Position numbers and translations under genes: made by a program. DNA of 64,000 nt from Gloeobacter violaceus PCC 7421 (GTDB taxonomy: Bacteria > Cyanobacteriota > Cyanobacteriia > Gloeobacterales > Gloeobacteraceae): the NCBI RefSeq assembly GCF_000011385.1, contig NC_005125.1, positions 1 through 64,000 of the forward strand, written 5' to 3'. How positions within the stretch are numbered: the stretch's first letter is position 1; every line of letters begins with the position of its first letter. The notes under the pieces were generated by a model. That model saw only the letters and a list, made by a program, of their open reading frames with translations. It made no database searches and was not told the DNA's origin. Positions 4,005-61,424 of this stretch are shown here, piece by piece.

Positions 4005-5027
4005 ATGTTATCGGTACGCGCAAAAGCAGCGGCAGCCGGTGTGGCGGCGGCTGGTTTGATTGGCACGTTTTTGAGCATGCCCGCGCACCAGGCGCAGGCC
4101 CAGTCCCAACAGACCATCAAGGTCGACGGTTCGAGCACGGTCTTCCCGATCACCGAGGCGGTGGCCGAGGAATTCCAGAAAAGCAAAAAGGGCGCAGTCA
4201 GGGTGACCGTCGGCGTCTCGGGCACCGGCGGCGGCTTTAAAAAGTTCTGCCGCGGTGAGACCGATATCTCCGACGCTTCGCGTCCGATTCTCAAAAAAGA
4301 AATGGACGCCTGCAAGGAGGCAGCAATTCAATACGTCGAGTTGCCGGTGGCCTACGACGCGCTGACGGTCATGGTCAATCCGTCCAACACCTGGGCGAGC
4401 ACGATGACAGTAGCGGAACTCAAAAAAATCTGGGAACCCGAGGCCCAGGGCAAAGTCACCAACTGGAATCAGGTGCGCTCGTCGTTTCCGAACGCGCCCC
4501 TGAAACTCTACGGCCCCGGTGCCGACTCCGGCACCTTCGACTACTTCACCGAAGCCGTGGTCGGTAAATCCAAAGCCAGCCGCGGCGATTTTACCGCTTC
4601 TGAAGACGACAACGTCCTGGTGCAGGGCATCGCCAACGACAAAAACGCCCTCGGTTACTTTGGCTACGCCTACTACGCCGAAAATAAGAGCAAGCTCAAG
4701 GCGGTGGGCGTCGACGGGGGCAAAGGACCTGTGCTCCCCTCGGACAAGACGGTCGAAGACGGCACCTACAACCCCCTCTCGCGGCCCATCTTCATCTACG
4801 TGAGCAACAAAGCGATGGCCCGGCCCGAGGTCAAGGAGTTCGTCGAGTTCTACCTCAAGAGCGCACCGACCCTGGTTAAGCAAGTCAAGTACGTCCCGCT
4901 GCCCAAAAAAGCCTACGACGTGGCTCTGAGCCACTTCCAGAAGAACCGCATGGGCACCGTCTTCGGCGGAGAGGCGGAGGTGGGCCTCAAGATCGAGGAT
5001 CTGCTGAGCCGCGAAGCGAAGTTCTAA
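4005..5027 (+). CDS. pstS: PstS phosphate-binding protein, paralogue 1
   Basis: Periplasmic binding protein of 340 residues with a signal peptide ending near AQA-QS (about residue 33). It has the PstS anion-binding loops GSSTVFPIT at the mature N-terminus, [11 protein letters not shown], and [10 protein letters not shown]. It would capture phosphate for the PstCAB importer encoded directly downstream. It is closest to paralogue 4 (10503): both read EPEAQ/EPAAQ then [11 protein letters not shown], unlike paralogues 2, 3 and 5. A hairpin with a T-run separates it from pstC, which would favour pstS over the membrane genes. Whether this copy discriminates phosphate from arsenate cannot be read from sequence. 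Confidence 0.92.
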
Positions 5028-5042
5028 ACTTTGGTCTGCGTG

Positions 5043-5077
5043 GGTAGGGCGCGTGCCTTGGCGCGGCCCTGCCTTTT
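5043..5077 (+). terminator. Hairpin attenuator between pstS1 and pstC
   Basis: Left arm 5043-5053 pairs with right arm 5062-5073, about 11 pairs with one bulge, mostly G-C, followed by TTTTCTT. This is a rho-independent terminator in the middle of an operon. Partial read-through would yield many pstS messages per pstCAB message, matching the need for excess binding protein. Confidence 0.7.
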
Positions 5078-5095
5078 CTTGTCACCCTACGCGTC

Positions 5096-6052
5096 ATGGC
5101 ATTGATGGCCACCAGCGATCCTTCCAGTCTTCAGAGCCGGGGCCGCCCCGCGGGCGGTGCCTTGCGCTACCGGCCCCTGCGCAACCTGCGCGAGCGGGCG
5201 ATCGAACTGGTACTGCTGCTTGCCGCCCTCTCCTCGGTGCTCACGACCGCCGGTATCGTCGCGGTGTTGTTGTTCGAGTCGTTCCAGTTTTTCGCCCAGG
5301 TGCCGCTGGGGCAATTTCTCACCGACACCCAGTGGACGCCTTTGTTCGCCAATCCCCGCTACGGCATCCTGCCGCTGGTGGCCGGGACGCTGGTGACCAC
5401 GGTGGTTGCCCTGGTTGTGGCCATTCCCCTGGGCACGATCGCCGCCATCTACCTGAGCGAGTACGCCCCCGCCCAGCTGCGCGAGGTGGCCAAGCCCGTC
5501 CTCGAATTGTTGAGCGCCGTGCCGACGGTGGTTTACGGTTACTTCGCGCTGTTGTTCGTGACGCCGCTGCTGCAGAAAATCTACCCGGATCTGCCCGGCT
5601 TCAACATGCTGAGCGCCGGGCTGGTGATCGGGATCATGATTATCCCCTATGTGTCGTCGCTCAGCGAGGATGCGATGCGCTCGGTGCCGATGGCGATTCG
5701 GGAGGGCTCCTACGCCATGGGGGCGACGCGCATGCAGACCGCCCTGCGCGTCGTGGTGCCTTCGGCCTTCTCAGGAATCGCCTCCGCCTACGTGCTGGGC
5801 TTCTCGCGGGCCATCGGCGAGACGATGATCGTGGCCATCGCCGCGGGCACCCAGCCCAATTTGACCCTTAACCCGACGGAGCCGGCAGCGACGATCACCG
5901 CCTACATCGTTCAGGTGAGCCTAGGCGATTTGCCCCACGGCACACTGGCCTACCAGACGATTTTTGCCGCCGGCCTGATGCTGCTCGCGATGACCCTCAC
6001 GTTCAACATCGCCGGCCATCTGCTGCGCAAGCGCTTCCGGGAGGTCTACTGA
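5096..6052 (+). CDS. pstC: Phosphate ABC transporter permease PstC
   Basis: Inner-membrane permease of 318 residues with about six membrane helices. The EAA-type coupling loop appears as REGSYAMGATRMQT...GFSRAIGETM, which contacts the PstB ATPase. It forms the heterodimeric channel with PstA. The stop TGA overlaps the pstA ATG by one base (TGATG), so they are translationally coupled. The soluble N-terminal stretch of about 35 residues is Arg-rich, as expected for the cytoplasmic side. Confidence 0.93.
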   Translation: MALMATSDPSSLQSRGRPAGGALRYRPLRNLRERAIELVLLLAALSSVLTTAGIVAVLLFESFQFFAQVPLGQFLTDTQWTPLFANPRYGILPLVAGTLVTTVVALVVAIPLGTIAAIYLSEYAPAQLREVAKPVLELLSAVPTVVYGYFALLFVTPLLQKIYPDLPGFNMLSAGLVIGIMIIPYVSSLSEDAMRSVPMAIREGSYAMGATRMQTALRVVVPSAFSGIASAYVLGFSRAIGETMIVAIAAGTQPNLTLNPTEPAATITAYIVQVSLGDLPHGTLAYQTIFAAGLMLLAMTLTFNIAGHLLRKRFREVY

Positions 6053-6966
6053 TGGACGCGGTGCAACTGCGTGAGGCGATCAAAAGCCGCAAGCGCGCCG
6101 ATCTCAGCTTTGCCGCCGCCGGATTGCTGGCGCTGCTGGTCGGGCTGGTGACGCTGACGGCGTTGATGGTGGATCTGGCCGTCGACGGTACCGCCCGGTT
6201 GCGGCCTGAATTTTTTACTTCCTTTCCCTCCCGCTTTGCCGAGCAGGCCGGGATCTTGTCGGCCTGGGTGGGCAGCTGCCTGGTGATGCTGGTGACGGCG
6301 GCGGCGGCGGTGCCTTTGGGGGTGGCGTCGGGCATTTACCTGGAGGAGTACGCCCCCAAAAACTGGTTCACCGAGATTATCGAGGTCAATATCACCAACC
6401 TCGCCGGGGTGCCTTCGATCATCTTCGGGCTGATGGCTTTGGGGTTATTTGTCTACGGTCTGGGATTGGGGGAGAGCATCCTCACTGCCGGGCTCACCCT
6501 GGCACTGCTTATCTTGCCTATCGTGATCGTCTCGACGCGCGAATCGCTGCGGGCGGTGCCCGACTCGATCCGCGAAGCCGCCTACGCCCTCGGGGCCACC
6601 CGCTGGCAGGTGGTGAGCGACCATATCCTGCCCTATTCGACCGGCGGCATCCTGACAGGGATCATCATCGGCCTCTCGCGGGCGATCGGCGAGACGGCCC
6701 CGCTTATCACCATCGGTGCTTTGACCTTTATCGCCTTCTTGCCGGATTTACCCTTGCGGGCCGAGTTTCCGTTTTTCTCCTTCCAGTGGCTTTCCTCGGG
6801 CTTCACGGTGCTGCCCATCCAGATGTTCAACTGGGTGTCGCGCCCCCAAGAGGCTTTTCAGCTCAACGCTGCTGCCGCCGGACTGGTGCTTATCGTGATG
6901 ACCCTCGGCATGAACGCGCTCGCCATCTACTTGCGCTACTCTTTTCGCAAACGCATCAAGTGGTAA
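6052..6966 (+). CDS. pstA: Phosphate ABC transporter permease PstA
   Basis: Second permease subunit, 304 residues, with about six hydrophobic helices. The coupling loop has [14 protein letters not shown]...[11 protein letters not shown], the PstA signature. It begins on the last base of pstC and ends eight bases before pstB, so pstCAB is one operon. Confidence 0.93.
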
Positions 6967-6974
6967 GAAACCCC

Positions 6975-7760
6975 ATGGCTTCTGCTGTTGAATCCACCCT
7001 CAAGACCAAGGCCCAGACCAGCAACCTCAGCTTCTACTACGGGGCGATCCAGGCACTCAAAAATATCCACCTCACCCTCGCCGAGCACCGGGTGACGGCC
7101 CTCATCGGTCCTTCCGGCTGCGGTAAGACCACCTACTTGCGCTGCTTCAACCGCATGCACGATCTGTATCCGGGCAATCGCTACGAAGGGCAGATCCTGC
7201 TCTACCCGGATGAAGTCAACATTGTCGGTCCCGAGGTGGACCCGATCGAGGTGCGCATGCGGGTGAGCATGGTCTTTCAGAAGCCCAACCCCTTTCCCAA
7301 ATCGGTGTACGAAAACGTCGCCTACGGTCTGCGCGTGCGCGGCGTGCGCAACCGCGCGGAACTGGACGAAAAAGTCGAGCGCGCCCTCCGCCAGGCGGCC
7401 CTGTGGGAAGAAGTCAAAGACCGCCTGGCTAGCCTCGCTTTCAACCTCTCGGGGGGACAGCAGCAGCGGCTGTGCATCGCCCGCGCCCTGGCGAGCGAAC
7501 CGGAGATTATCTTATTCGACGAGCCGACCTCCGCCCTCGACCCGCTCGCCACGCTCAAAATCGAGGAGCTGATGGGCAAGCTCAAGCAGTCGATCACCAT
7601 CTTGATCGTCACCCACAACATGCAGCAGGCTGCCCGCATCTCCGATTTCACCGCCTTTATGTACCTGGGTGAGGTGATCGAAAGCGGCCAGACCAACCAG
7701 ATGTTCGACCACCCCACCAACCAGCTGACCGAGCAGTACGTCGCGGGGCACTTCGGGTAA
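6975..7760 (+). CDS. pstB: Phosphate ABC transporter ATPase PstB
   Basis: ATPase of 261 residues with Walker [11 protein letters not shown]-loop [11 protein letters not shown] (diagnostic for PstB), signature LSGGQQQR, Walker [14 protein letters not shown] and H-loop THNMQQA. It powers PstCA. The ATG at 6975 lies eight bases after pstA. No phoU gene follows; instead four stand-alone pstS genes follow, which is unusual. Confidence 0.95.
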
Positions 7761-7765
7761 GTTCA

Positions 7766-7783
7766 AATCAATAAATTTTGATT
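7766..7783. promoter_or_regulatory. ArsR-type palindrome upstream of pstS2
   Basis: AATCAA-N6-TTGATT, a perfect 18-base palindromic site six bases after the pstB stop. It has the same half-sites and spacer as 3826-3841. A second copy with one mismatch follows at 7921-7936. It is a candidate operator for arsenic control of pstS2. Confidence 0.6.
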
Positions 7784-7920
7784 AATAAATCTGAGAGCAA
7801 CATATATTTCCTGAGCAATTTTCAGGCTTCAAATGCCTCGCTAGCTTCTGGATAGGATTCTTGGCGAGAAGCTGTCGTGATGCAGGTATGCGAGAAGGCG
7901 CGGCCGGCCTGCTTTTATAA

Positions 7921-7936
7921 ATCAACAATTTTTGAA
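7921..7936. promoter_or_regulatory. Second ATCAA-N6-TTGAa site upstream of pstS2
   Basis: ATCAA-N6-TTGAA matches nine of ten symmetric positions of the site at 7767-7782. It lies 48 bases before the pstS2 start. Two spaced sites could allow cooperative binding. Confidence 0.45.
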
Positions 7937-7983
7937 ATAATGAAGTTGTCCAGAAAGCAGTAGCGATAGAAAGGATTTTCAAA

Positions 7984-8997
7984 ATGAAGAATAAACCACT
8001 TGCTGTCGCCGCCAGTATCGTGGCGCTTGCTGCGGGTGCGACCCTGGCGCAGGGGCTTCCCGCGCAGGCACCGTCCGTTAAGATCGATGGATCGAGCACG
8101 GTCTACCCGATCACCCGCGCCGCCGTCAAAGCCTTCGAGGCCGAACACAAGCAATTCCAGGGCAAAATCGCCGTCAACTTCTCCGGCACCGGCGGTGGAT
8201 TTCGCAAGTTCTGCAGCGGTGAGACCGATATTTCCGACGCTTCGCGGCCGATCCTCCAAAGGGAGATGGATGAGTGCCGACGGGCAAACGTCGCCTTTAT
8301 GGAACTGCCGGTGGCCTTCGACGCGCTCACGGTCGTCGTCCACCCCAAAAATACCTGGGCTAGCGAGATCACCGTCGCCGAGCTCAAAAAAATCTGGGAG
8401 CGCGCCTCCCAGGGCAAAATCACCCGCTGGAGTCAGGTGCGCCCCGGCTTTCCCGACCGGCCGCTCAGGCTGTATGGCCCCGGGCGCGACTCAGGGACGT
8501 ATGACTACTTTGCTGAAGCCATTCTGGGCTCCGCCGACACCGACACCCGCAGCGATTACGAGGCATCTGAGGACGACGACGTGCTGGTAGAAGGAGTAGC
8601 TGCGGATCCCAACGCGCTGGGTTATTTTGGCTACGCCTACTACGAAGCGAACCTGAACAGACTGAAGACCCTGGCCGTCGATAGCGGCAAAGGCCCGGTA
8701 GCCCCTACCGACAAAAACGTCGAGAAGGGCACCTATGCTCCGCTGTCGCGACCGCTGTTCATCTACGTCAACATCGTCTCGGCGCAAAAAAAAGCGGAAG
8801 TGCGCGAATTTGTAGACTTTTACCTTGAAAACGGCGCGAAGCTCGCTTCCTTGGTGGGCTATGTACCCTTACCGGCGGAAGGCTATCACATCGCCAACAA
8901 CCACTTCCATCGGGGCAAGCGCGGCACGGTGTACGGTGGGCGGGCCTACCTGGGGCTGACCATCCGCGAGGTGCTCCTCAAAACCGCCAGCTTCTAG
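7984..8997 (+). CDS. pstS: PstS-like phosphate-binding protein, paralogue 2
   Basis: Secreted binding protein of 337 residues with signal peptide, then KIDGSSTVYPIT, FSGTGGGFRKFC, and DSGTYDYFAE loops. It belongs with paralogues 3 and 5 (ERASQGKITRWSQVR; C-terminus ending LLKTASF), separate from 1 and 4. About 160 bases at 8291-8449 are almost identical to 9674-9832 in paralogue 3. It has its own upstream region with two ArsR-type palindromes, so it is probably a separate transcript. It could present ligand to the single PstCAB encoded here. Confidence 0.88.
   Translation: MKNKPLAVAASIVALAAGATLAQGLPAQAPSVKIDGSSTVYPITRAAVKAFEAEHKQFQGKIAVNFSGTGGGFRKFCSGETDISDASRPILQREMDECRRANVAFMELPVAFDALTVVVHPKNTWASEITVAELKKIWERASQGKITRWSQVRPGFPDRPLRLYGPGRDSGTYDYFAEAILGSADTDTRSDYEASEDDDVLVEGVAADPNALGYFGYAYYEANLNRLKTLAVDSGKGPVAPTDKNVEKGTYAPLSRPLFIYVNIVSAQKKAEVREFVDFYLENGAKLASLVGYVPLPAEGYHIANNHFHRGKRGTVYGGRAYLGLTIREVLLKTASF
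8291..8449 (+). repeat. Near-identical block shared by pstS2, pstS3 and pstS5
   Basis: This 159-base stretch matches 9674-9832 (pstS3) with one mismatch, and about 140 bases of it match 11921-12062 (pstS5) with a few changes, including at silent codon positions. The 5' flanks of the three genes are much more divergent, a pattern expected from gene conversion or recent recombination. Confidence 0.75.
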
Positions 8998-9357
8998 CCG
9001 TCGAGGTGTATCTTGTCGGTTTCGAGGCTCGCGGTTGTTGTGAGAATTTCCATCTTTTCAGTCGATATTATGTCTTACGATTGTAATTGCCAGCAATAAG
9101 ATTGACGCTTGAAAGTCGTACTGGGAGATTGTTTGGCAAAAGCCGACCGAATAGCTGTATATAAAGGCTGCAAGAACTTGAAGGTCGCAAGCTGCGGAGG
9201 GTTCCCGGGCGTACTGCATAAGGGGAAAGCGACGTCTCTACGGAAATAATGTGGGCAGAGGACGTCAGCCGGCGTCTGAAATTTGTCGGCAGTCACACCT
9301 AACGCCTCGAATGATGCGGCTGCCAACGATCTTAAGGTTTTCGCTGAAGTGGAGAGC
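8998..9357. other. Intergenic region upstream of pstS3
   Basis: No convincing gene. It contains an imperfect inverted repeat, GACGTCTCT (9231-9239) against AGAGGACGTC (9257-9266), about 90 bases before the pstS3 start. No ATCAA-N6-TTGAT site or Pho box is seen. The region is more AT-rich in its first half, so a promoter is likely but not identifiable. Confidence 0.4.
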
Positions 9358-10380
9358 ATGATGAAAAAGTCAGTTGTTGTCGGTATTTCTGTCGCAGTAC
9401 TCGCCGCAGCCAGCATGGTGCTTGCGGCTCAAAACACCACCGCCCGCCCTTCACAGGTCAGCATCGACGGTTCGAGCACGGTCCACCCGATCACCCGGAC
9501 CGCTGTCGAGGAGTTTCTATCGCGCAACCCGCAGATCGCCAAAGGTGCATTCGCCGTTGGCTTTTCCGGAACCGGGGGCGGTTTGAAAAAGCTTTGCACC
9601 GGCGAAATCGACATCGCCGGTGCTTCTCGGCCCATTTCGCGGCAAGAAATTCAGTCTTGCCGCAACAACAATATCGCCTTTATGGAACTGCCGGTGGCCT
9701 TCGACGCGCTCACGGTCGTCGTCCACCCCAAAAATACCTGGGCTAGCGAGATCACCGTCGCCGAACTCAAAAAAATCTGGGAGCGCGCCTCCCAGGGCAA
9801 AATCACCCGCTGGAGTCAGGTGCGCCCCGGCTGGCCTGACCGGCCACTCAAGCTCTACGGACCCGGCCGCGACTCGGGCACTTATGACTACTTTGCCGAG
9901 GCGATTTTGGGCTCCGCCAACACCGACACCCGCAGCGACTATGTCGACAGCGAGGACGACGACGTGCTGGTCAGAGGGGTCAGCGAAGATCCCGACGCCC
10001 TGAGCTACTTTGGCTACGCCTACTACGAAGCGAGCCGTGGACGCCTCAAAGCGCTTGCGGTGGCAAACGGCCTGGGAGCTGTTGCGCCCTCCCGGCAGGC
10101 TGTCGAGAAAAACCTCTACCAACCCTTGGCGCGGCCGCTGTTTCTCTACGTCAACATGGTCTCCAGCCAGACAAAACCCCCGGTGCGGGAGTTCGTCGGA
10201 TTTTATCTGCAACATGCCGGACGGATCGTGAACGCCGTCGGGTATGTTCCCCTGCCGCCGGAGGGTTACCACATCGCCAACAATCACTTCTGGCGGGGCA
10301 AGCGCGGCACGGTGTACGGCGGGAAGGCCCAGATAGGATTGACCCTGCGCCAGATGCTCCTCAAAACCGCCAGTTTCTAG
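9358..10380 (+). CDS. pstS: PstS-like phosphate-binding protein, paralogue 3
   Basis: Secreted binding protein of 340 residues. The start is the ATG at 9358, with GGAG nearby; the double Met opens a typical signal peptide ending near LAA. Ligand loops are SIDGSSTVHPIT (His instead of Phe/Tyr before PIT), FSGTGGGLKKLC, and DSGTYDYFAE. The loop normally reading DISDASRPI reads DIAGASRPI here. These changes near the anion pocket could alter affinity or selectivity. Its middle shares a near-identical DNA block with paralogues 2 and 5. Confidence 0.87.
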   Translation: MMKKSVVVGISVAVLAAASMVLAAQNTTARPSQVSIDGSSTVHPITRTAVEEFLSRNPQIAKGAFAVGFSGTGGGLKKLCTGEIDIAGASRPISRQEIQSCRNNNIAFMELPVAFDALTVVVHPKNTWASEITVAELKKIWERASQGKITRWSQVRPGWPDRPLKLYGPGRDSGTYDYFAEAILGSANTDTRSDYVDSEDDDVLVRGVSEDPDALSYFGYAYYEASRGRLKALAVANGLGAVAPSRQAVEKNLYQPLARPLFLYVNMVSSQTKPPVREFVGFYLQHAGRIVNAVGYVPLPPEGYHIANNHFWRGKRGTVYGGKAQIGLTLRQMLLKTASF

Positions 10381-45640: not shown

Positions 45641-47422
45641 CTAGCGCGGTCCGCGGATTTGCCATTTTGAGTCGGCGACTGGAGGCAGGGTGGCGGAGAC
45701 GCCCAGGACCGTATCGTTCATCAACCAGACGGCGTTGGCGCCGGTGGCGGTGTTGCGCCAGAGAATATCGGGACGGTTGTCGGCATCGTAGTCGCCCACC
45801 CCGCCGATTTGCCAATCAAGCCCCACGGCCGGCAGTGCGGCGGTGTTTTTCAGAGTGGTCTGATCCATCAGCCAGAGGCTGTTGACCCCCGTGACGGTAT
45901 TGCGCCAGAGAACGTCGGTGCGCCCGTCGAAATCAAAATCGCCGGTGCCGCCGATCTGCCAGGCGAGATCCCCCACCGCCGGCAGGGGCACCGAGGCGAT
46001 GAAGGTCGTGCGATTCATCAACCAGACGGTGTTGGCACCAGTCGAGTGGTTGCGCCAGAGAATATCCGCACTGCCGTCGAAATCAAAATCGCCCGTGCCG
46101 CCAATGTGCCAGCCCAAATCCCCTACCGCAGGCAAAGCGACCGTCGAAGCGAGGACGGTGCCGTTCATCAGCCAGACGGTGTTGGCACCCGTGGCGGTGT
46201 TGCGCCAGAGGATGTCCGCCTTGGTATCGAAATTGAAGTCGCCGGTGCCGACAATCTTCCAGTTCGGGTCGCCGACCGCAGGCAGAGCAATCGCTTGTGC
46301 GCTAAAGGAGGCCGCAGAACCGAGGGTGTCGCTCTGCACTGTCCAGAGGGTGTTGGCGCCCGTCTGGCCGTTGCGCCAGAGGAGATTCGACAAGCCGCCG
46401 CCGCTGAAATGGGCGGGGGGAATCGGCCTGGCGTTGCGCACGACAAAGACGAGATCTTGAAAGTCAAAACTGGTGGTGATCCCTTCGAGCGCTACGACAA
46501 AGGCGTTGAGTTCGACGGTGCCGTCGCTTTTTTTGAGGGGATAGACCCGCATATGGTGCGGCAGGGCGTCGGTGAACGTGTTCAACCCGTCCTCGAGGAA
46601 GACTTCGCGGTTGCCCTGGAAGGGCAAAATGGCATAAAAGCCAAAACTTCCCACTCCCGGATCGAACTCGCGCTTGCCCGTCACCGGCGGGGCAAGGGTT
46701 TGGTGGTTGGCGTCGGCGACGGTGAACAGTTCGCTTTTGGCGGCCGGGTTGCCCGACGGATGATGCCCGACGCGAAAGACGAGCCCCGAGTTGCTTTGGG
46801 GAGCAAAGACCGCCAAAGGCTCGACGGTGACCGGTCCCGAACCGGCTTTGAGAAAGCGCTGAATACTCATTTCCCCACCCAGGGGGACCGACCCCGCCAG
46901 ATCGGTCTCGGCGGGGTCTGGGTCGCCTACATCGACCGCGATCAAGTACGTATCGAAAATCCACTGCAGCGAGGGTTCGAGGTTGCCGCCGATGCCTTTG
47001 GTGCCCAGGCCCTGCAGCGACATCGAGGCCGTGGGAGTGGCCGGGGCATCGGTGGCAATGTCGAGGCGGGCAATGGCCGGTCCGGCCGCCGTCGGGTTAA
47101 AGACGATCCCGACGCTCACGGAGGTGCCGGGTGCGACCGTCGCAGGCAGCGTCGGCTGTGAAGCAATCTGAAATTGACCGGGGGTACCGTCGATGGTGAC
47201 GATGGTAAGACTCTGGATGCTCAAGCCGGTCGAACCGCCGTTGGCGATCGTCACAGTTTGAGGGGTGCTTGCAGTCCCGCCCAACACGTCGTTGACGACC
47301 AGTTGGGCGGGGGTGGCGTTGACAATCGGCTCTGCCCTCAGCGGCCCGTTCCAGCAAAGCGCAGATCCCCCCGCCCATGCCAGGGCAATCGCAGCGAGCC
47401 GAACCGATTTGATTAAATGCAC
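45641..47422 (-). CDS. Secreted FG-GAP/DUF4114 protein, copy A
   Basis: Protein of 593 residues: signal peptide (about 1-30), an ASH-like beta domain (choice-of-anchor type, about 35-130; for example NGGSTGLSIQSLTI), a DUF4114-like domain (about 215-345, with FGFYAILPF and SFDFQDLVFVVRNARP) and five FG-GAP-like repeats (about 350-590), each with a DILWRN-TGANTVWLMN core. Such repeats form Ca-binding beta-propellers in adhesion-type proteins. GTG start. The paralogue at 47532 lies directly upstream on the same strand. Probably exported or cell-surface. Confidence 0.82.
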   Translation of the reverse strand: MHLIKSVRLAAIALAWAGGSALCWNGPLRAEPIVNATPAQLVVNDVLGGTASTPQTVTIANGGSTGLSIQSLTIVTIDGTPGQFQIASQPTLPATVAPGTSVSVGIVFNPTAAGPAIARLDIATDAPATPTASMSLQGLGTKGIGGNLEPSLQWIFDTYLIAVDVGDPDPAETDLAGSVPLGGEMSIQRFLKAGSGPVTVEPLAVFAPQSNSGLVFRVGHHPSGNPAAKSELFTVADANHQTLAPPVTGKREFDPGVGSFGFYAILPFQGNREVFLEDGLNTFTDALPHHMRVYPLKKSDGTVELNAFVVALEGITTSFDFQDLVFVVRNARPIPPAHFSGGGLSNLLWRNGQTGANTLWTVQSDTLGSAASFSAQAIALPAVGDPNWKIVGTGDFNFDTKADILWRNTATGANTVWLMNGTVLASTVALPAVGDLGWHIGGTGDFDFDGSADILWRNHSTGANTVWLMNRTTFIASVPLPAVGDLAWQIGGTGDFDFDGRTDVLWRNTVTGVNSLWLMDQTTLKNTAALPAVGLDWQIGGVGDYDADNRPDILWRNTATGANAVWLMNDTVLGVSATLPPVADSKWQIRGPR

Positions 47423-47531
47423 AGGCCGATTCCAAGAAATGTTACCCGTTCTATGGGCAGTCTTCCAGGATTAGTGCCCGTTGGCAAGGTCCACAAGGGG
47501 ACGGGGCCACCCAAGTGGCCCCGTCCCAGCG

Positions 47532-49289
47532 CTAGCGGGGGCCGCGGATCTGCCAGTTGAGATCCTCCAGGGCAGGGATTGCCACCGAAGAACTCAGCGT
47601 CGTCCCGTTCATCCTCCAGATGCTGTTGACGCCGGTGGTCTGGTTGTGCCAGAGAATGTCCGGTTTGTTGTCGGAGTTGTAGTCTCCCACCCCGCCGATC
47701 AGCCAACCCGGATCGCTCACTGAGGCAATGGCCACGGCGGCCCCAAAGGTGGTGCCGCTCATCCTCCAGACGGTGTTGGCGCCGGTGGTCTGGTTGCGCC
47801 AGAGAATGTCCGGCCGACTGTCGCCGGTAAAATCGCCCGCTCCGACAATTTGCCAGCCCAGGTCCGCCACCGCCGGCAGGGCTACGGAGGAGACGAAGGC
47901 GCTGCCGTTCATCAGCCAGACGCTGTTGGCACCGGTGACTTTGTTGCGCCAGAGGATATCCACTTTGCCGTCGAAGTTCAAATCGCCCGTCCCGGCTATC
48001 TGCCAGTTCAGATCGCCCACCGACGCCAGGACTACGGAGGAGACGAAGGCGGTGCCGTTCATCAGCCAGACGCTATTGGCGCCGGTGGCTTTGTTGCGCC
48101 AGAGGATATCCACTTTGCCGTCGAAGTTCAAATCGGGGGTACCGACGATTTCCCAGTTGGCATCACCAACAGGTGCGACAGGGAAAGCCTCCAGAAAAGC
48201 CGCGTCGTTCATCTGCCAGACGGTATTTTCCCCCGTCACCGGGTTGCGCAAAAGAATGTCCGACTTGCCGACGTTGCCGTAGAAATCACCTGGGGGCACG
48301 GGTTTGACATTGCGCACGATCAAGACGAGGTCTTGAAAGTCGAAGTTGATAGTAGTCTCCTCGATAGACACCACATAAGCGTTCGGCTCGCGCGTGCCGT
48401 CGGATTTTTTGAGAGGGTAGATGCGCGTCTGGTGCGGGATAGCCCCTGAAAACGTGTTCAGACGCTCTTCGCTGTAGACCGTCCGATTAGAAAGAAACGG
48501 CCAGACTGAGTAGAGACCGAAGCTGTTGTTTCCCGGATCGAAGCTCAAGGTGCCGGTGGTGGCCGGGGCGAGCGATTGGTAGTTTGCGTTGGGTACGGTA
48601 AACAGCTGGGTCTTGGCGTTGGGGTTGCCGGCGGTGTAGTAGCCGAGGCTCACCACATAGCCGGGGGCACCCTGACCGCTGAATACCGCGAGCGCCTCGA
48701 CGGTGACCGGGGAAGAACTGGCCTTGCGAAACTGCGGCGGGCTGATTTCTTCACCCAGCGGCACCGTGGCTGGCAGTGCATCGGTGGCCGGATTGGTATC
48801 CCCGACGTTGACGGGAATCAAATAAGTGTCGAGGACCCACTGCAGCGACGGCTCTTTGCCGGTGCCGATACCTAGGGTACCCAGACCCTGCAGCGAGACG
48901 GAAACCGAAGCGTTGTTGGCGGCATCGCTGGTCAAACCCAGCCGGGCGATCACCGGCCCGGCCACCGTCGGGTTGAAGACGACCCCCACGGTGGTCGAGG
49001 CCCCGGGTGTCAATACGAGCGGCAGGGGTTGAGCGGGAGTGAGCTGAAACTGGGTCTCCTCGCCGCCGCTGACGCCAGTGAGCGTCAGACCGGAGAGGTT
49101 CAAAGCGGCATTGCCGTTGTTGGTGATCGTGACATTGCGGGGGGTGCCGGGCGCACCTCCAATAATGTCGTTGGTCACGACGCGGGTGGAGCCGAACGCG
49201 ACATTCGCCTGGGCGGCGACGGGGGAGGCTGGGGCCAGATTCAGCGCCAGTACAGCCAGAGGGACGATTGCAGGAAGGTTGCGCAGCAT
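47532..49289 (-). CDS. Secreted FG-GAP/DUF4114 protein, copy B
   Basis: Protein of 585 residues with the same domain order as copy A: signal peptide (about 1-27), ASH-like domain, DUF4114-like domain (FDFQDLVLIVRNVKPVPP) and five repeats with DILWRN-TGANSVWLMN cores spaced 50 residues apart. Two adjacent repeats are nearly identical in DNA, showing recent internal duplication. GGAAG precedes the ATG at 49289. It lies 109 bases upstream of copy A. Confidence 0.82.
   Translation of the reverse strand: MLRNLPAIVPLAVLALNLAPASPVAAQANVAFGSTRVVTNDIIGGAPGTPRNVTITNNGNAALNLSGLTLTGVSGGEETQFQLTPAQPLPLVLTPGASTTVGVVFNPTVAGPVIARLGLTSDAANNASVSVSLQGLGTLGIGTGKEPSLQWVLDTYLIPVNVGDTNPATDALPATVPLGEEISPPQFRKASSSPVTVEALAVFSGQGAPGYVVSLGYYTAGNPNAKTQLFTVPNANYQSLAPATTGTLSFDPGNNSFGLYSVWPFLSNRTVYSEERLNTFSGAIPHQTRIYPLKKSDGTREPNAYVVSIEETTINFDFQDLVLIVRNVKPVPPGDFYGNVGKSDILLRNPVTGENTVWQMNDAAFLEAFPVAPVGDANWEIVGTPDLNFDGKVDILWRNKATGANSVWLMNGTAFVSSVVLASVGDLNWQIAGTGDLNFDGKVDILWRNKVTGANSVWLMNGSAFVSSVALPAVADLGWQIVGAGDFTGDSRPDILWRNQTTGANTVWRMSGTTFGAAVAIASVSDPGWLIGGVGDYNSDNKPDILWHNQTTGVNSIWRMNGTTLSSSVAIPALEDLNWQIRGPR
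47881..48130 (-). repeat. Recently duplicated 150-bp FG-GAP unit
   Basis: Within copy B two adjacent 150-base units (start points 47881 and about 48031) share about 100 bases with only a few differences. One 50-residue propeller blade has been copied. Other blades in copies A and B are more diverged. Confidence 0.75.
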
Positions 49290-57918: not shown

Positions 57919-57985
57919 CGGTCGGATCGCACCTGGCCGGACGGGCGCCAATACTGCTATTCTCTTGCGGGAACAGGGAATCGCA

Positions 57986-59155
57986 ATGAGTATTGTACGG
58001 CGTCGATTGCTGCTGTTGGGGGGATTCAGTCTGGGGGCGGTGGGCGTGGGCGTCGCTGCGGCCAGGCTGTGGCCCGCCGGAGGAGCTCGACCTACTACCA
58101 CCCCCGGTGCCGACAACGCCCAGGCCGCCCTCCCCCGGCCTGTCGGCCCCCAGGGCATGTTTGCCCCGCCGCGGGGCGATGTGCGGCTGGTGGTGATTAG
58201 CGACCTGAACAGCTACTACGGCTCGGTGGAGTACGAACCGCAGGTCACCCGCGCGATCGCCCTGATCCCGGGCTGGAAGCCCGACATCGTGCTGTGCGGG
58301 GGCGACCTGGTGGCGGGACAGTCGCCGTCGCTCAAGCGCGAGCGGCTGCTTGCGATGTGGGCCGCCTACGACCGGCTCATCGGTGCACCGCTGCGCAAGG
58401 CACGCCTGCCCTTCGGCTTCACCGTCGGCAACCACGACGCCTCCTGCGAGCGGGCCATCCGGGGCAACTATCTCTACAAACTGGAGCGCGACGTCACCGC
58501 GGGCTACTGGCGCGACCCCGCCCACGACTCGGGGCTCGCCTTTATCGACCGGGGCGAATTTCCGTTCTACTACACCTTCGCCGCCAACGATATTTTCTAT
58601 CTGGTCTGGGACGCCTCCTGCGCCCGCATCCCGGCCGAGCAACTGGCCTGGGCCGAAAAAGCCCTGGCAAGCGCCCCCGCCCAGAACGCGAAGTTGCGCG
58701 TCGCCATCGGCCATCTGCCTTTGTACGCGGTGGCGGTAGGCCGCGACGAACCGGGCGAAATTCTTGATAATGCCGAGAAACTGCGGATGCTATTGGAGCG
58801 CTACCGCGTGCACACCTACATCAGCGGCCACCACCACTCCTACTACCCCGCCTACCGGGGGCAACTGCAACTGCTCCACGCCGGTGCCCTGGGTTCCGGT
58901 CCCCGCCCGCTTATCGACGGCAACCTCCGGCCCTGGCACCCGCTCACAGTCATCGACATCGACATGGCCACTCTCGCAACGACTTACACCACCTACGACA
59001 TGGAAACCCTCAAAGTCTTTGACATCGCCCGGCTGCCCCGGATGCTCAGCGGACCCACCGGCGCCGTCTTCCGCCGCGACGTGCGCTGGGAAGATCTCAG
59101 CGCCGCCGAGCGCAAGCGCTGCCTCGATCAGCTGGGCGAAAAAGGGTGCCGCTAG
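57986..59155 (+). CDS. Exported metallophosphoesterase
   Basis: Protein of 389 residues: N-terminal signal or anchor with RRR and a hydrophobic run (MSIVRRRLLLLGGFSLGAV), Tat-like, then calcineurin-fold metal motifs: ISDLNSYYG (D), GGDLVAG, GNHDASCE, GHLPLYA and GHHHSYY. It should hydrolyse a phosphoester outside the cytoplasm. The ATG at 57986 follows AGGGA. The family spans nucleotidases to phospholipases; substrate unknown. Confidence 0.85.
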   Translation: MSIVRRRLLLLGGFSLGAVGVGVAAARLWPAGGARPTTTPGADNAQAALPRPVGPQGMFAPPRGDVRLVVISDLNSYYGSVEYEPQVTRAIALIPGWKPDIVLCGGDLVAGQSPSLKRERLLAMWAAYDRLIGAPLRKARLPFGFTVGNHDASCERAIRGNYLYKLERDVTAGYWRDPAHDSGLAFIDRGEFPFYYTFAANDIFYLVWDASCARIPAEQLAWAEKALASAPAQNAKLRVAIGHLPLYAVAVGRDEPGEILDNAEKLRMLLERYRVHTYISGHHHSYYPAYRGQLQLLHAGALGSGPRPLIDGNLRPWHPLTVIDIDMATLATTYTTYDMETLKVFDIARLPRMLSGPTGAVFRRDVRWEDLSAAERKRCLDQLGEKGCR

Positions 59156-59232
59156 GGCCATTTTGCCGGAGGGGTCAACCGTTATAATGCGGCGAGATTG
59201 AAGCGATGCGCGTGCGCCACCAAAGCCGGGTC
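59156..59232 (+). repeat. 77-bp direct repeat with promoter, copy 1
   Basis: Matches 60264-60340 with 72 of 77 bases identical. It includes a TATAAT box (59183-59188) and the start codon plus first codons of the following gene (ATG 59206, MRVRH). The two copies flank the AbiEii-like pair. Confidence 0.9.
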
Positions 59233-59895
59233 TTCATCCCCAATCTAGCTATGCTGCCCCCGCCACAACGCTCCTTGTGGCCGGAGCTGGGCGCCACGCC
59301 AGAAGCCTTCGCGCTCTACGGAGGCACAGCACTCGCGCTGCACCTGGGGCATCGCACATCGGTCGATTTCGATTTTTTCTGCAATGTCCCCTTCGATCCC
59401 GATCAGCTCGCTTACGCGCTGCCCTATCTTAAGGGCGCGGAACGGGTTCAGCTTGCCCCCAACACGCTGACCTGCCGCGTCGAGCGCGGCGGCCCGGTGC
59501 TGGTGTCCTTTTTCGGCGGCCTCGGCCTGGGTCAGGTAGCACTGCACGAGCAAGTGCAGGCGATGCCGCTGCAGGTAGCTTCGCTGCTGGATATTGCCGG
59601 TACCAAAGTGGCCGTGGTGCAAAAGCGAGCGGAAATCAAGGATTATCTTGATATCGACGCTCTGCTGCAGCACGGAATTGACCTGCCAACAGCACTGGCA
59701 GCCGGTGCGGTCGTGTATGGGCGCAGCTTCAACCCGCTGATAGCACTCAAGGCGCTGAGCTACTTCGACGATCTGCCCACCTTACCCGCCGCAGTCCGGG
59801 CGCGGCTCAGTGCAGCAGTCACGGCGGTCAATGTAAACCAATTGCCAGTACTGACCCCCTATATCGAACGACCGAATCAGGAGTTTAGGCGATGA
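59206..59895 (+). CDS. AbiEii/AbiGii-family nucleotidyltransferase
   Basis: Protein of 229 residues with the nucleotidyltransferase core YGGTALALHLGHRTSVDFDFF (Gly-Gly and Asp-x-Asp motifs), the later KVAVVQKRAEIKDYLDIDALL typical of AbiEii, and a C-terminal helical tail. Members are toxins that transfer NMPs to tRNA or act in phage abortive infection. Residues 1-9 (MRVRHQSRV) derive from the flanking repeat; the true start may be the Met at 59251. The next gene overlaps by four bases, as in toxin-antitoxin pairs. Confidence 0.8.
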   Translation: MRVRHQSRVFIPNLAMLPPPQRSLWPELGATPEAFALYGGTALALHLGHRTSVDFDFFCNVPFDPDQLAYALPYLKGAERVQLAPNTLTCRVERGGPVLVSFFGGLGLGQVALHEQVQAMPLQVASLLDIAGTKVAVVQKRAEIKDYLDIDALLQHGIDLPTALAAGAVVYGRSFNPLIALKALSYFDDLPTLPAAVRARLSAAVTAVNVNQLPVLTPYIERPNQEFRR

Positions 59896-60203
59896 AACCA
59901 TTGCCACAGACACCGGAATTGCTGGCGGTCGCTGAGCGCGTGGTGTGGTTCAAGCCCCCAGCCGAGGCCTTGGGGGAGCCATTGCATTTTCTGGCGCACG
60001 TCATGACTTACGGTACGCCCGAGGACTTACGGGCACTGCAGGGCACTGTGGGGCTGAACGAGTACTGTGAAGTCCTCGACAATACACCGCCGGGTGTGTT
60101 CGATGCTCGTTCCTGGGCCTACTGGAACCTCATATGCGGGCGCGACCCCGCACCGCCCTTGCCTTTGCGGCAGGGCTTGCACCCATCCCGCCCAAAAACC
60201 TAG
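59892..60203 (+). CDS. Partner of the nucleotidyltransferase, putative antitoxin
   Basis: Protein of 103 residues, overlapping the toxin-like gene by ATGA. It contains VVWFKPPAEALGEPLHFLAHVMTYG and a second half with LNEYCEVLDNTPPGVFDARSWAYW. No DNA-binding motif was recognised, so antitoxin is inferred from position. The last 15 residues (LRQGLHPSRPKT) are low in protein character and may be a chance extension. Confidence 0.65.
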   Translation: MKPLPQTPELLAVAERVVWFKPPAEALGEPLHFLAHVMTYGTPEDLRALQGTVGLNEYCEVLDNTPPGVFDARSWAYWNLICGRDPAPPLPLRQGLHPSRPKT

Positions 60204-60263
60204 CTGCGCCCACAATGGCGTGGGTGGCAGGGCTTTCTGTTTGTTCAATCGTGGCGCCTTTTA

Positions 60264-60340
60264 GGCCGTTTTGCCGGAGGGGTCAACCGTTATAATGCGG
60301 CGAGATTGAAGCAATGCGCGTGCGCCACCGAAGCCAAGTC
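60264..60340 (+). repeat. 77-bp direct repeat with promoter, copy 2
   Basis: Second copy of the sequence at 59156-59232; it supplies promoter and first codons to the dockerin-domain gene at 60314. The five differences include two adjacent bases near its end. Confidence 0.9.
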
Positions 60341-61408
60341 CTCTTCATTACTGCCGCCAGCCTGTTACTTTTGGCCCAGAGCCTGCCTGCTGCCAGCGGC
60401 GACGTCAACAGCGACGGTCGCGTGGACGATCTCGATATACGTATCGTCGAGCAGTACCTGCGCGGCGATCTGCTGTTGCAAAACGATCAGATCAAAGCCG
60501 CCGACGCCGACGGCGACGGTAAGGTGACCCGCAACGACCGCGACCTGCTCAAGCGGCGGCTCGAAGGCATTACCGTCAAATCCGGTCCGGCAAGCCAACT
60601 GGAATTGCAGAGCGTCAGCGGCGGCGTCGTGCTCGACAAGGCCACCGGCAAACCGCTCGCCGGTGTGGAAGTCTCGCTGCCCGACGAAGGGATCACCGTG
60701 CGCACCGACGCCCAGGGCCGTTTCAAGCTCGCCCGCGCCCCGGCGGGCAAGATCCTCACCGCCAAAGCTTCCAGCTACGCACCCCAGTCGATCACCCTCG
60801 CCCGCGGCGGCAGCGGCGGCTACCGGCTGTTGCTCGAACAGTTGAACCCCCAGTTGATGGTGGTCGACGACAACCTCTACCATCTGGGCAACGACGACTT
60901 TGATCCCAATTCGGCAGGGGCTTTGCAATTCAACCTGCGCAGCATCGGCGGCCGGTTCGAGAAAACCTTCGAACTGACGAGCTTTCCGCGCGAGGATCTG
61001 ACGCTGCGCATCGGCTCGCTGATCGGCCTCGACACGCCCGAATCGGTGGCGGCGGGCCAGTCGGGCCTCACCGACCGCATCCTGCCCAGAGGCGGCCTGC
61101 GCATCTTCCTCAACGGCTCGGCCATCGAGCGGCTGGTCCTCAACGGCGACGACCTCGAAGTCAAACTGCCCCGCTGGCTGTTGCAGCGCGGCACCAACCG
61201 GCTGATGCTGAGCGTCGATCCTTACGATCAGAACAATATATCTATATCCAAGCCCGTCACCGGCCTGTACGGCACGGCGACCCGCAGCAGCTTCGATCTG
61301 GATGATATAGAATTTGCCCATCTAGTGATCGTCGATCCGACCGGATCGCTCGTCGACGGCAAGCTGGAGGGCGAACTCGGTAAAAAGCCGTCGCCGCCCG
61401 GTCCCTGA
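60314..61408 (+). CDS. Secreted dockerin/regulatory-domain protein, paralogue B
   Basis: Protein of 364 residues: signal peptide (about 1-25), dockerin loops DVNSDGRVDDLDI and DADGDGKVTRNDRDLL, carboxypeptidase-regulatory-like domain (GVVLDKATGKPLAGVEVSLP...ILTAKASSYAP), and the C-terminal domain with LRIGSLIGLDTPESVAAGQ and DDIEFAHLVIVD. It is the first of three tandem paralogues. Its promoter and first codons lie in the 77-bp repeat copy 2. C-terminal end is Lys/Pro-rich without an anchor. Confidence 0.8.
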   Translation: MRVRHRSQVLFITAASLLLLAQSLPAASGDVNSDGRVDDLDIRIVEQYLRGDLLLQNDQIKAADADGDGKVTRNDRDLLKRRLEGITVKSGPASQLELQSVSGGVVLDKATGKPLAGVEVSLPDEGITVRTDAQGRFKLARAPAGKILTAKASSYAPQSITLARGGSGGYRLLLEQLNPQLMVVDDNLYHLGNDDFDPNSAGALQFNLRSIGGRFEKTFELTSFPREDLTLRIGSLIGLDTPESVAAGQSGLTDRILPRGGLRIFLNGSAIERLVLNGDDLEVKLPRWLLQRGTNRLMLSVDPYDQNNISISKPVTGLYGTATRSSFDLDDIEFAHLVIVDPTGSLVDGKLEGELGKKPSPPGP

Positions 61409-61424
61409 ACTCGGGAGGTGCCCC

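Follow-up and report, generated by a model that had tools for sequence, protein, structure and literature searches.

A toxin–antitoxin-like gene pair between 77-bp repeats in Gloeobacter violaceus PCC 7421, probably inserted with duplication of the start of a dockerin gene

How does a two-gene cassette come to lie between a phosphoesterase gene and a dockerin gene, bracketed on both sides by the sequence from which the dockerin gene itself starts? The question is raised by a locus near the end of the analysed stretch of DNA (hereafter the window), which comprises bases 1-64000 of the single contig (4,659,019 bp; 4.66 Mb) of the Gloeobacter violaceus PCC 7421 genome. In agreement with the original prediction, the two direct repeats are identical at 72 of 77 bases and each contains TTATAATGCGGCGAGA, an ATG and the codons for MRVRH; copy 2 starts the dockerin gene, and copy 1 is fused to an AbiEii-like gene (Table 1). 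The copies are offset by 1108 bp. The repeat begins with the first base after the phosphoesterase stop codon TAG (59153-59155) and extends through codon 9 of the dockerin gene, comprising 50 intergenic and 27 coding nucleotides, i.e., the entire intergenic region and nine codons. A dispersed repeat family had been considered from the outset. A search of the whole genome, however, recovered two copies only (E values of 1.2e-95 for the query itself and 1.3e-27 for the other copy, and at least 0.77 for the remaining matches), and the repeat is therefore neither a chance match nor a member of a dispersed family. As for the surroundings, three dockerin/carboxypeptidase-regulatory-like genes are arranged in tandem at 60314-63699. 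Elsewhere in the window, a repetitive gene region at 4179-10033 contains several long repeats with 85-97% identity and spacings of 1.4-6.5 kb, and the region 45700-48270 is rich in repeats spaced by about 150 bp.

Table 1. Features of the locus in the window and of further repeat-bracketed loci in the same genome (contig coordinates; for the latter, positions of the left and right repeat copies).
Feature	Position	Strand	Remarks
Calcineurin-like phosphoesterase (left flank)	57956..59155	+	In G001, directly followed by the single repeat copy
Direct repeat copy 1	59156..59232	+	Probable target duplication; holds the -10-like box and what is now the start codon of the toxin-like gene; one copy only at the G001 empty site
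TATAATGCGGCGAGA box (15-mer) in copy 1	59183..59197	+	Other copy at 60291-60305
MenT/AbiEii-like nucleotidyltransferase (predicted), 229 aa	59206..59895	+	ORF starts in copy 1; Pfam AbiEii (PF08843) 1.6e-16
Partner gene, 103 aa, putative antitoxin	59892..60203	+	Overlaps the toxin-like gene by ATGA; small protein, predicted all-helical
Inserted segment, 1031 bp	59233..60263	.	Equal length in G003; missing from G001
Direct repeat copy 2	60264..60340	+	Promoter-like box, start codon and first 9 dockerin codons
Dockerin/carboxypeptidase-regulatory-like protein, 364 aa, signal peptide	60314..61408	+	Starts in copy 2; Dockerin_1 1.3e-14; probable target gene, of cell-surface type, intact
PIN-domain gene and membrane-protein gene	109309-109509/111458-111658		201-bp repeats; PIN_3 5.5e-9
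BrnT and BrnA	1189434-1189544/1190222-1190332		111-bp repeats at a gene end; BrnT 1.3e-24, BrnA 9.9e-15
MNT nucleotidyltransferase and HEPN	1529559-1529708/1530761-1530909		Repeats of ~150 bp at the end of an ABC-transporter gene; HEPN 7.4e-16
Insert without toxin–antitoxin genes (393-aa and 89-aa ORFs)	1883243-1883306/1884924-1884988		65-bp repeats
ParE-like toxin and RHH antitoxin	1942882-1942974/1943808-1943900		93-bp repeats, 98% identical; ParE 6.3e-15

The larger gene of the pair is predicted to encode a MenT/AbiEii-like nucleotidyltransferase, as indicated by the DUF1814/AbiEii profile, the intact nucleotidyltransferase motifs GGTALALHLGHRTSVDFDFF and KVAVVQKRAEIKDYLDID, and the AlphaFold model (pLDDT 94.5), whose best folds are H. 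pylori nucleotidyltransferase 4ok0, MenT4 (6y56) and MenT1 (8an4). The pair had been described as a nucleotidyltransferase pair, which holds for one member; the other is an unnamed small protein with no match in Pfam, NCBIfam or PADLOC. Its model (pLDDT 93.5) is all-helical, and its gene lies beside the toxin homologue in 32 of 33 homologous loci. The operon structure points to a putative antitoxin. Comparisons with PDB sequences, Foldseek and VIA-align gave no match, and the sole lead on the identity of the partner is DUF6922, weakly matched by three of 28 family members (best E value 0.054). The fold following the pair is no better than those of shuffled sequences (z 0.55), and a terminator is not claimed there.

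The origin of the repeat was traced by comparison with homologous loci and with genomes of the same genus, namely G001, G002 and the nearly closed G003. In G002, where the pair is absent, the 15-mer TATAATGCGGCGAGA precedes the dockerin orthologue by 30 bp, and its only exact copies in 2.46 Mb of the PCC 7421 genome are the two in the repeats. Homologues of the toxin-like protein, found at 33 loci in distant phyla (Acidobacteria, Chlorobi, Geobacter and others) with up to 75% identity, mostly start with M-x-F(I/N/S)P at the very position where the repeat-encoded part of the Gloeobacter protein ends. The MRVRH leader is present in none of these 33 loci. The first nine codons of the toxin-like gene (MRVRHQSRV) are repeat sequence, the MRVRHQSR of the dockerin gene replacing the M-x-F start. 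The repeat is thus target sequence rather than cargo: it belongs to the dockerin gene, to which the -10-like box appears to be native, and the start of the toxin gene is foreign. Capture of a promoter and a start codon had been proposed initially. The assignment of the box to the dockerin gene stands, but the promoter is reduced to a conserved -10-like box, since a consensus scan detected neither a sigma-70 site nor a -35 consensus there. The captured box would nevertheless drive transcription of the toxin-like gene, and translation probably starts at 59206. The junction at codon two or three of the toxin gene may be the original boundary or may result from later in-frame trimming, so that 77 bp represents a lower bound on the original duplication. 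A donor sequence close enough for reading the junctions was not found. Around the homologous cassettes (about 30 other loci) there are no flanking repeats comparable to the 77-bp ones; the sole match over 20 bp is one of 26 bp at locus L071.

The state of the site differs among the relatives. In G001, a draft of about 100 contigs, a kind of assembly in which repeats can be mis-joined, the phosphoesterase stop codon is followed by one 77-bp copy leading directly into the dockerin gene, and the alignments of the two flanks share exactly 77 bases. No relative of the AbiEii/nucleotidyltransferase gene is present anywhere in this genome. A pair-free relative with one repeat copy, by which the original prediction was to be checked, is therefore available, with the reservation that this draft genome may have lost the pair. 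G003 contains the pair and both repeat copies, 76 of their 77 bases being identical, and the insert is again 1031 bp long. The single difference between the G003 copies indicates that the common ancestor had identical or almost identical copies. Between PCC 7421 and G003 the dS values of the toxin (0.151) and dockerin (0.157) genes are equal, indicating that the insert is older than the split of the two lineages. With dN/dS of 0.020/0.151 for the toxin and 0.013/0.098 for its partner, dN is about one seventh of dS in both genes; both are under purifying selection and have been kept by it.

The single-copy site of G001 and the MRVRH-free toxin homologues support the earlier proposal that the pair was inserted at the 5' end of the dockerin gene with duplication of about 77 bp. 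We consider it probable that a toxin–antitoxin-like cassette was inserted here without a transposase, with a 77-bp target duplication, capturing the dockerin start and leaving the dockerin gene intact. According to this scheme, a cassette consisting of a MenT/AbiEii-type gene and its small helical partner would have been acquired horizontally from a distant bacterium and inserted, with no transposase involved, between the phosphoesterase and dockerin genes by an event of the kind termed insertion with long target duplication. Seventy-seven target bases, the entire intergenic region with nine dockerin codons, would have been duplicated. Copy 1, joined in frame, would have formed a new 5' end for the toxin-like gene, whose original start codon would have given way to the -10-like box and start of the dockerin gene; copy 2 would have left the latter intact. 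Possible founding routes are a template switch with the incoming fragment, repair of a staggered break (widely staggered nicks) and a circle with one repeat copy; either template switching or nick repair would yield the arrangement left flank–repeat–insert–repeat–right flank. Once formed, the repeats would make the cassette removable and amplifiable through ordinary homologous recombination.

Similar arrangements occur elsewhere in the genome. A scan for isolated direct repeats, blind to their cargo, was performed on 2.464 Mb; a repeat internal to a gene, repeats in multiple copies and a repetitive gene cluster were set aside, and the last steps of candidate filtering were done by eye. Among the rejected candidates were 93722 (both repeat copies within one ORF), 451-455 kb (the repetitive gene cluster), 363938/365867 (tandem regulator-receptor modules), and 372698 and 665532 (no colinearity of the flanks, or similarity running past the repeat). 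This left eight loci with two repeat copies each, the inserts measuring 0.25-8 kb. Two of them, 231545 and 1202395, are weak (84% identity) and were also set aside, the former having a 5.6-kb insert and the latter a gene that is present in G003, where the second copy has no match. Five of the eight loci, including the one described here, carry toxin–antitoxin-type genes (Table 1). By way of baseline, 24 random 1.2-kb intervals contained one possible antitoxin and no recognised toxin family (20 of 40 ORFs scanned); against this rough baseline the difference, five of eight loci versus one of 24 intervals, gives p = 0.0015, a comparison that is indicative only because the filtering was finished by eye.

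Single-copy sites were found at three further loci, with the same architecture as at the dockerin gene. At the BrnTA locus, G003 has one repeat copy and no insert, the flank alignments overlapping by 110 bp (by alignment coordinates). The repeats of the PIN locus are the 3' end of an ADP-ribosylglycohydrolase-like gene; the PIN-domain gene contains one in-frame stop codon in PCC 7421 and is open in G001. The site is empty in G003, with an overlap of 201 bp, and the single copy there is a chimera, its left part corresponding to the left copy and its right part to the right copy. Such a chimera is a crossover product, arising by loss or by Campbell-type integration, and homologous recombination thus most likely acts on these repeats. 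The insert at 1883243 is missing from G001 (overlap of 62 bp), and in G003 the locus comprises two tandem inserts and three repeat copies (by alignment coordinates), which is the amplification expected of such repeats. The ParE/RHH and MNT/HEPN loci have no colinear relative among the compared genomes and hence no informative empty site; for the latter, a second, partial repeat copy is located about 0.9 kb away in G003. That several toxin–antitoxin modules of one genome are bracketed alike hints at a recurrent transposase-free route of movement. More broadly, it is conceivable, although we hold this only tentatively and at somewhat less than even odds, that in Gloeobacter unrelated toxin–antitoxin families (MenT-like, BrnTA, PIN, and probably ParE/RHH and MNT/HEPN) have repeatedly been inserted without transposases, duplicating 65-200 bp of the target, and that the host-derived repeats serve as attachment sites based on homology, through which modules are precisely lost, amplified in tandem or re-integrated.

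The strongest alternative concerns when the insertion took place rather than how: all three species may have inherited it, the pair having been lost from G001 by recombination between the 77-bp repeats. The probability of this falls just short of one half. In the count of shared derived sites in core genes, from which one paralogous gene was left out, the grouping of the two pair-bearing genomes, PCC 7421 and G003, is the least supported of the three (33 sites, versus 60 for PCC 7421 with G001 and 41 for G001 with G003). The respective counts are 17, 17 and 21 in the left flank and 13, 11 and 56 in the dockerin block. These data indicate that the three genomes form a near-trichotomy, nearly equidistant and affected by recombination; the excess shared by G001 and G003 to the right of the insert (56 versus 13 and 11), compared with 21 versus 17 and 17 to the left, suggests recombination between strains. 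As the trichotomy does not join the pair-bearing genomes, G001 may be a deletion derivative rather than ancestrally pair-free. Long direct repeats lend themselves to such loss, and the single PIN-locus copy of G003, left-type on the left and right-type on the right, is what a crossover would produce. At the dockerin gene itself, however, there is one diagnostic site only (repeat base 5, where G001 has the copy-1 letter), and so no positive sign of a crossover. An origin by insertion with duplication holds either way, whether G001 lost the pair or never had it.

A Campbell-type event is less likely, at perhaps half the probability of loss, and would alter the reading of the repeats themselves: a circle or fragment carrying the cassette and one target copy, excised from the same site in another strain, would have crossed into the resident copy, and the repeats would be homology arms rather than a duplication made on the spot. 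It would produce exactly the observed L-X-insert-X-R structure, the chimera at the PIN locus is also expected from integration of a diverged circle, and a circle model has been proposed for repeat-flanked genes of Arabidopsis. The equality of dS in the insert and the neighbouring gene argues against recent transfer between the PCC 7421 and G003 lineages, and the first insertion is left unexplained, so that a founding event is still required.

Two further explanations are both very improbable. Tandem duplication of the dockerin gene, followed by replacement of the body of the upstream copy by the pair so that copy 1 is the surviving 5' end, fits an array of three paralogues in which unequal crossing-over happens, but it invokes two events where one suffices, no dockerin remnant is seen between the partner gene and copy 2, the repeat stops at codon 9, it would not account for the other loci, where no tandem gene families are involved, and it is made unnecessary by the relative G001, which has a single repeat copy and lacks an additional dockerin gene. 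Insertion by an integrase or transposase since lost or acting in trans, with the 77 bp as attachment site, would accord with the use and restoration of gene ends by some integrases, but the insert contains no recombinase gene, the six inserts have neither shared ends nor terminal inverted repeats over 7 bp, the repeats (65-201 bp) differ in sequence at each locus, and the 77-bp repeat has just its two genomic copies.

Insertion with long target duplication, the reading preferred here, has a named precedent. It was reportedly described for restriction-modification genes by Nobusato and co-workers in 2000. According to a later summary, the cases came to light between two H. pylori strains (PMC1643837); another paper refers to the target duplications as long and variable (PMC3031569), and a review, in which restriction-modification systems are discussed jointly with toxin–antitoxin systems, puts their length at about 100 bp (PMC3874152). 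This precedent qualifies the original prediction, which named no mobile element with such an outcome. The present locus shares with the precedent the direct repeats, derived from the target and roughly 100 bp long, the single-copy site in a relative, a selfish two-gene cargo and the lack of a transposase. It differs in its cargo, an AbiEii-like gene and its partner here and BrnTA and PIN modules at other loci, and in that the duplication spans the 5' end of a gene and supplies the start codon of the cargo. As the cargo is not a restriction-modification system, the locus is a variant of this class and not a strict member. No report of insertion with long target duplication of toxin–antitoxin modules was found in the literature searched, which left out most subscription papers, including the founding ones.

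Other known systems fit less well. The toxin fold, the motifs and the two-gene operon resemble MenAT and AbiE (DUF1814 nucleotidyltransferase) systems, but the partner is located downstream, is about 100 aa long and matches neither AbiEi nor MenA; assignment to type IV AbiE was rejected, since there the AbiEi antitoxin is encoded upstream of the toxin. A DDE/IS transposon is contradicted by the lack of a transposase ORF in the 1031 bp and a longest terminal inverted match of 6 bp, and an integron cassette by the lack of an integrase in the insert and of shared attC-like repeats, the 77-bp repeat being unique to its locus and the others different. SXT/R391-type elements use the 5' end of a host gene as their integration site and supply the gene with a new promoter and N-terminus. 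They resemble the present locus in inserting where a gene begins while both ends stay functional, but there an integrase-bearing element rewrites the host gene, whereas here a 1-kb integrase-free cassette takes the 5' end of the host gene.

How chromosomal toxin–antitoxin modules enter genomes without a carrier mobile element is an old question. In Gloeobacter a single genome offers several such loci, with several toxin families, and comparison of close relatives reveals the states before and after at single-base resolution, which makes this question testable. The in-frame capture of a start indicates in addition how a cassette that brings no start codon can arrive at a position allowing its expression without harm to its neighbour. 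If the reading of repeated insertion is true, toxin–antitoxin modules would themselves be minimal mobile units, as has been proposed for restriction-modification genes.
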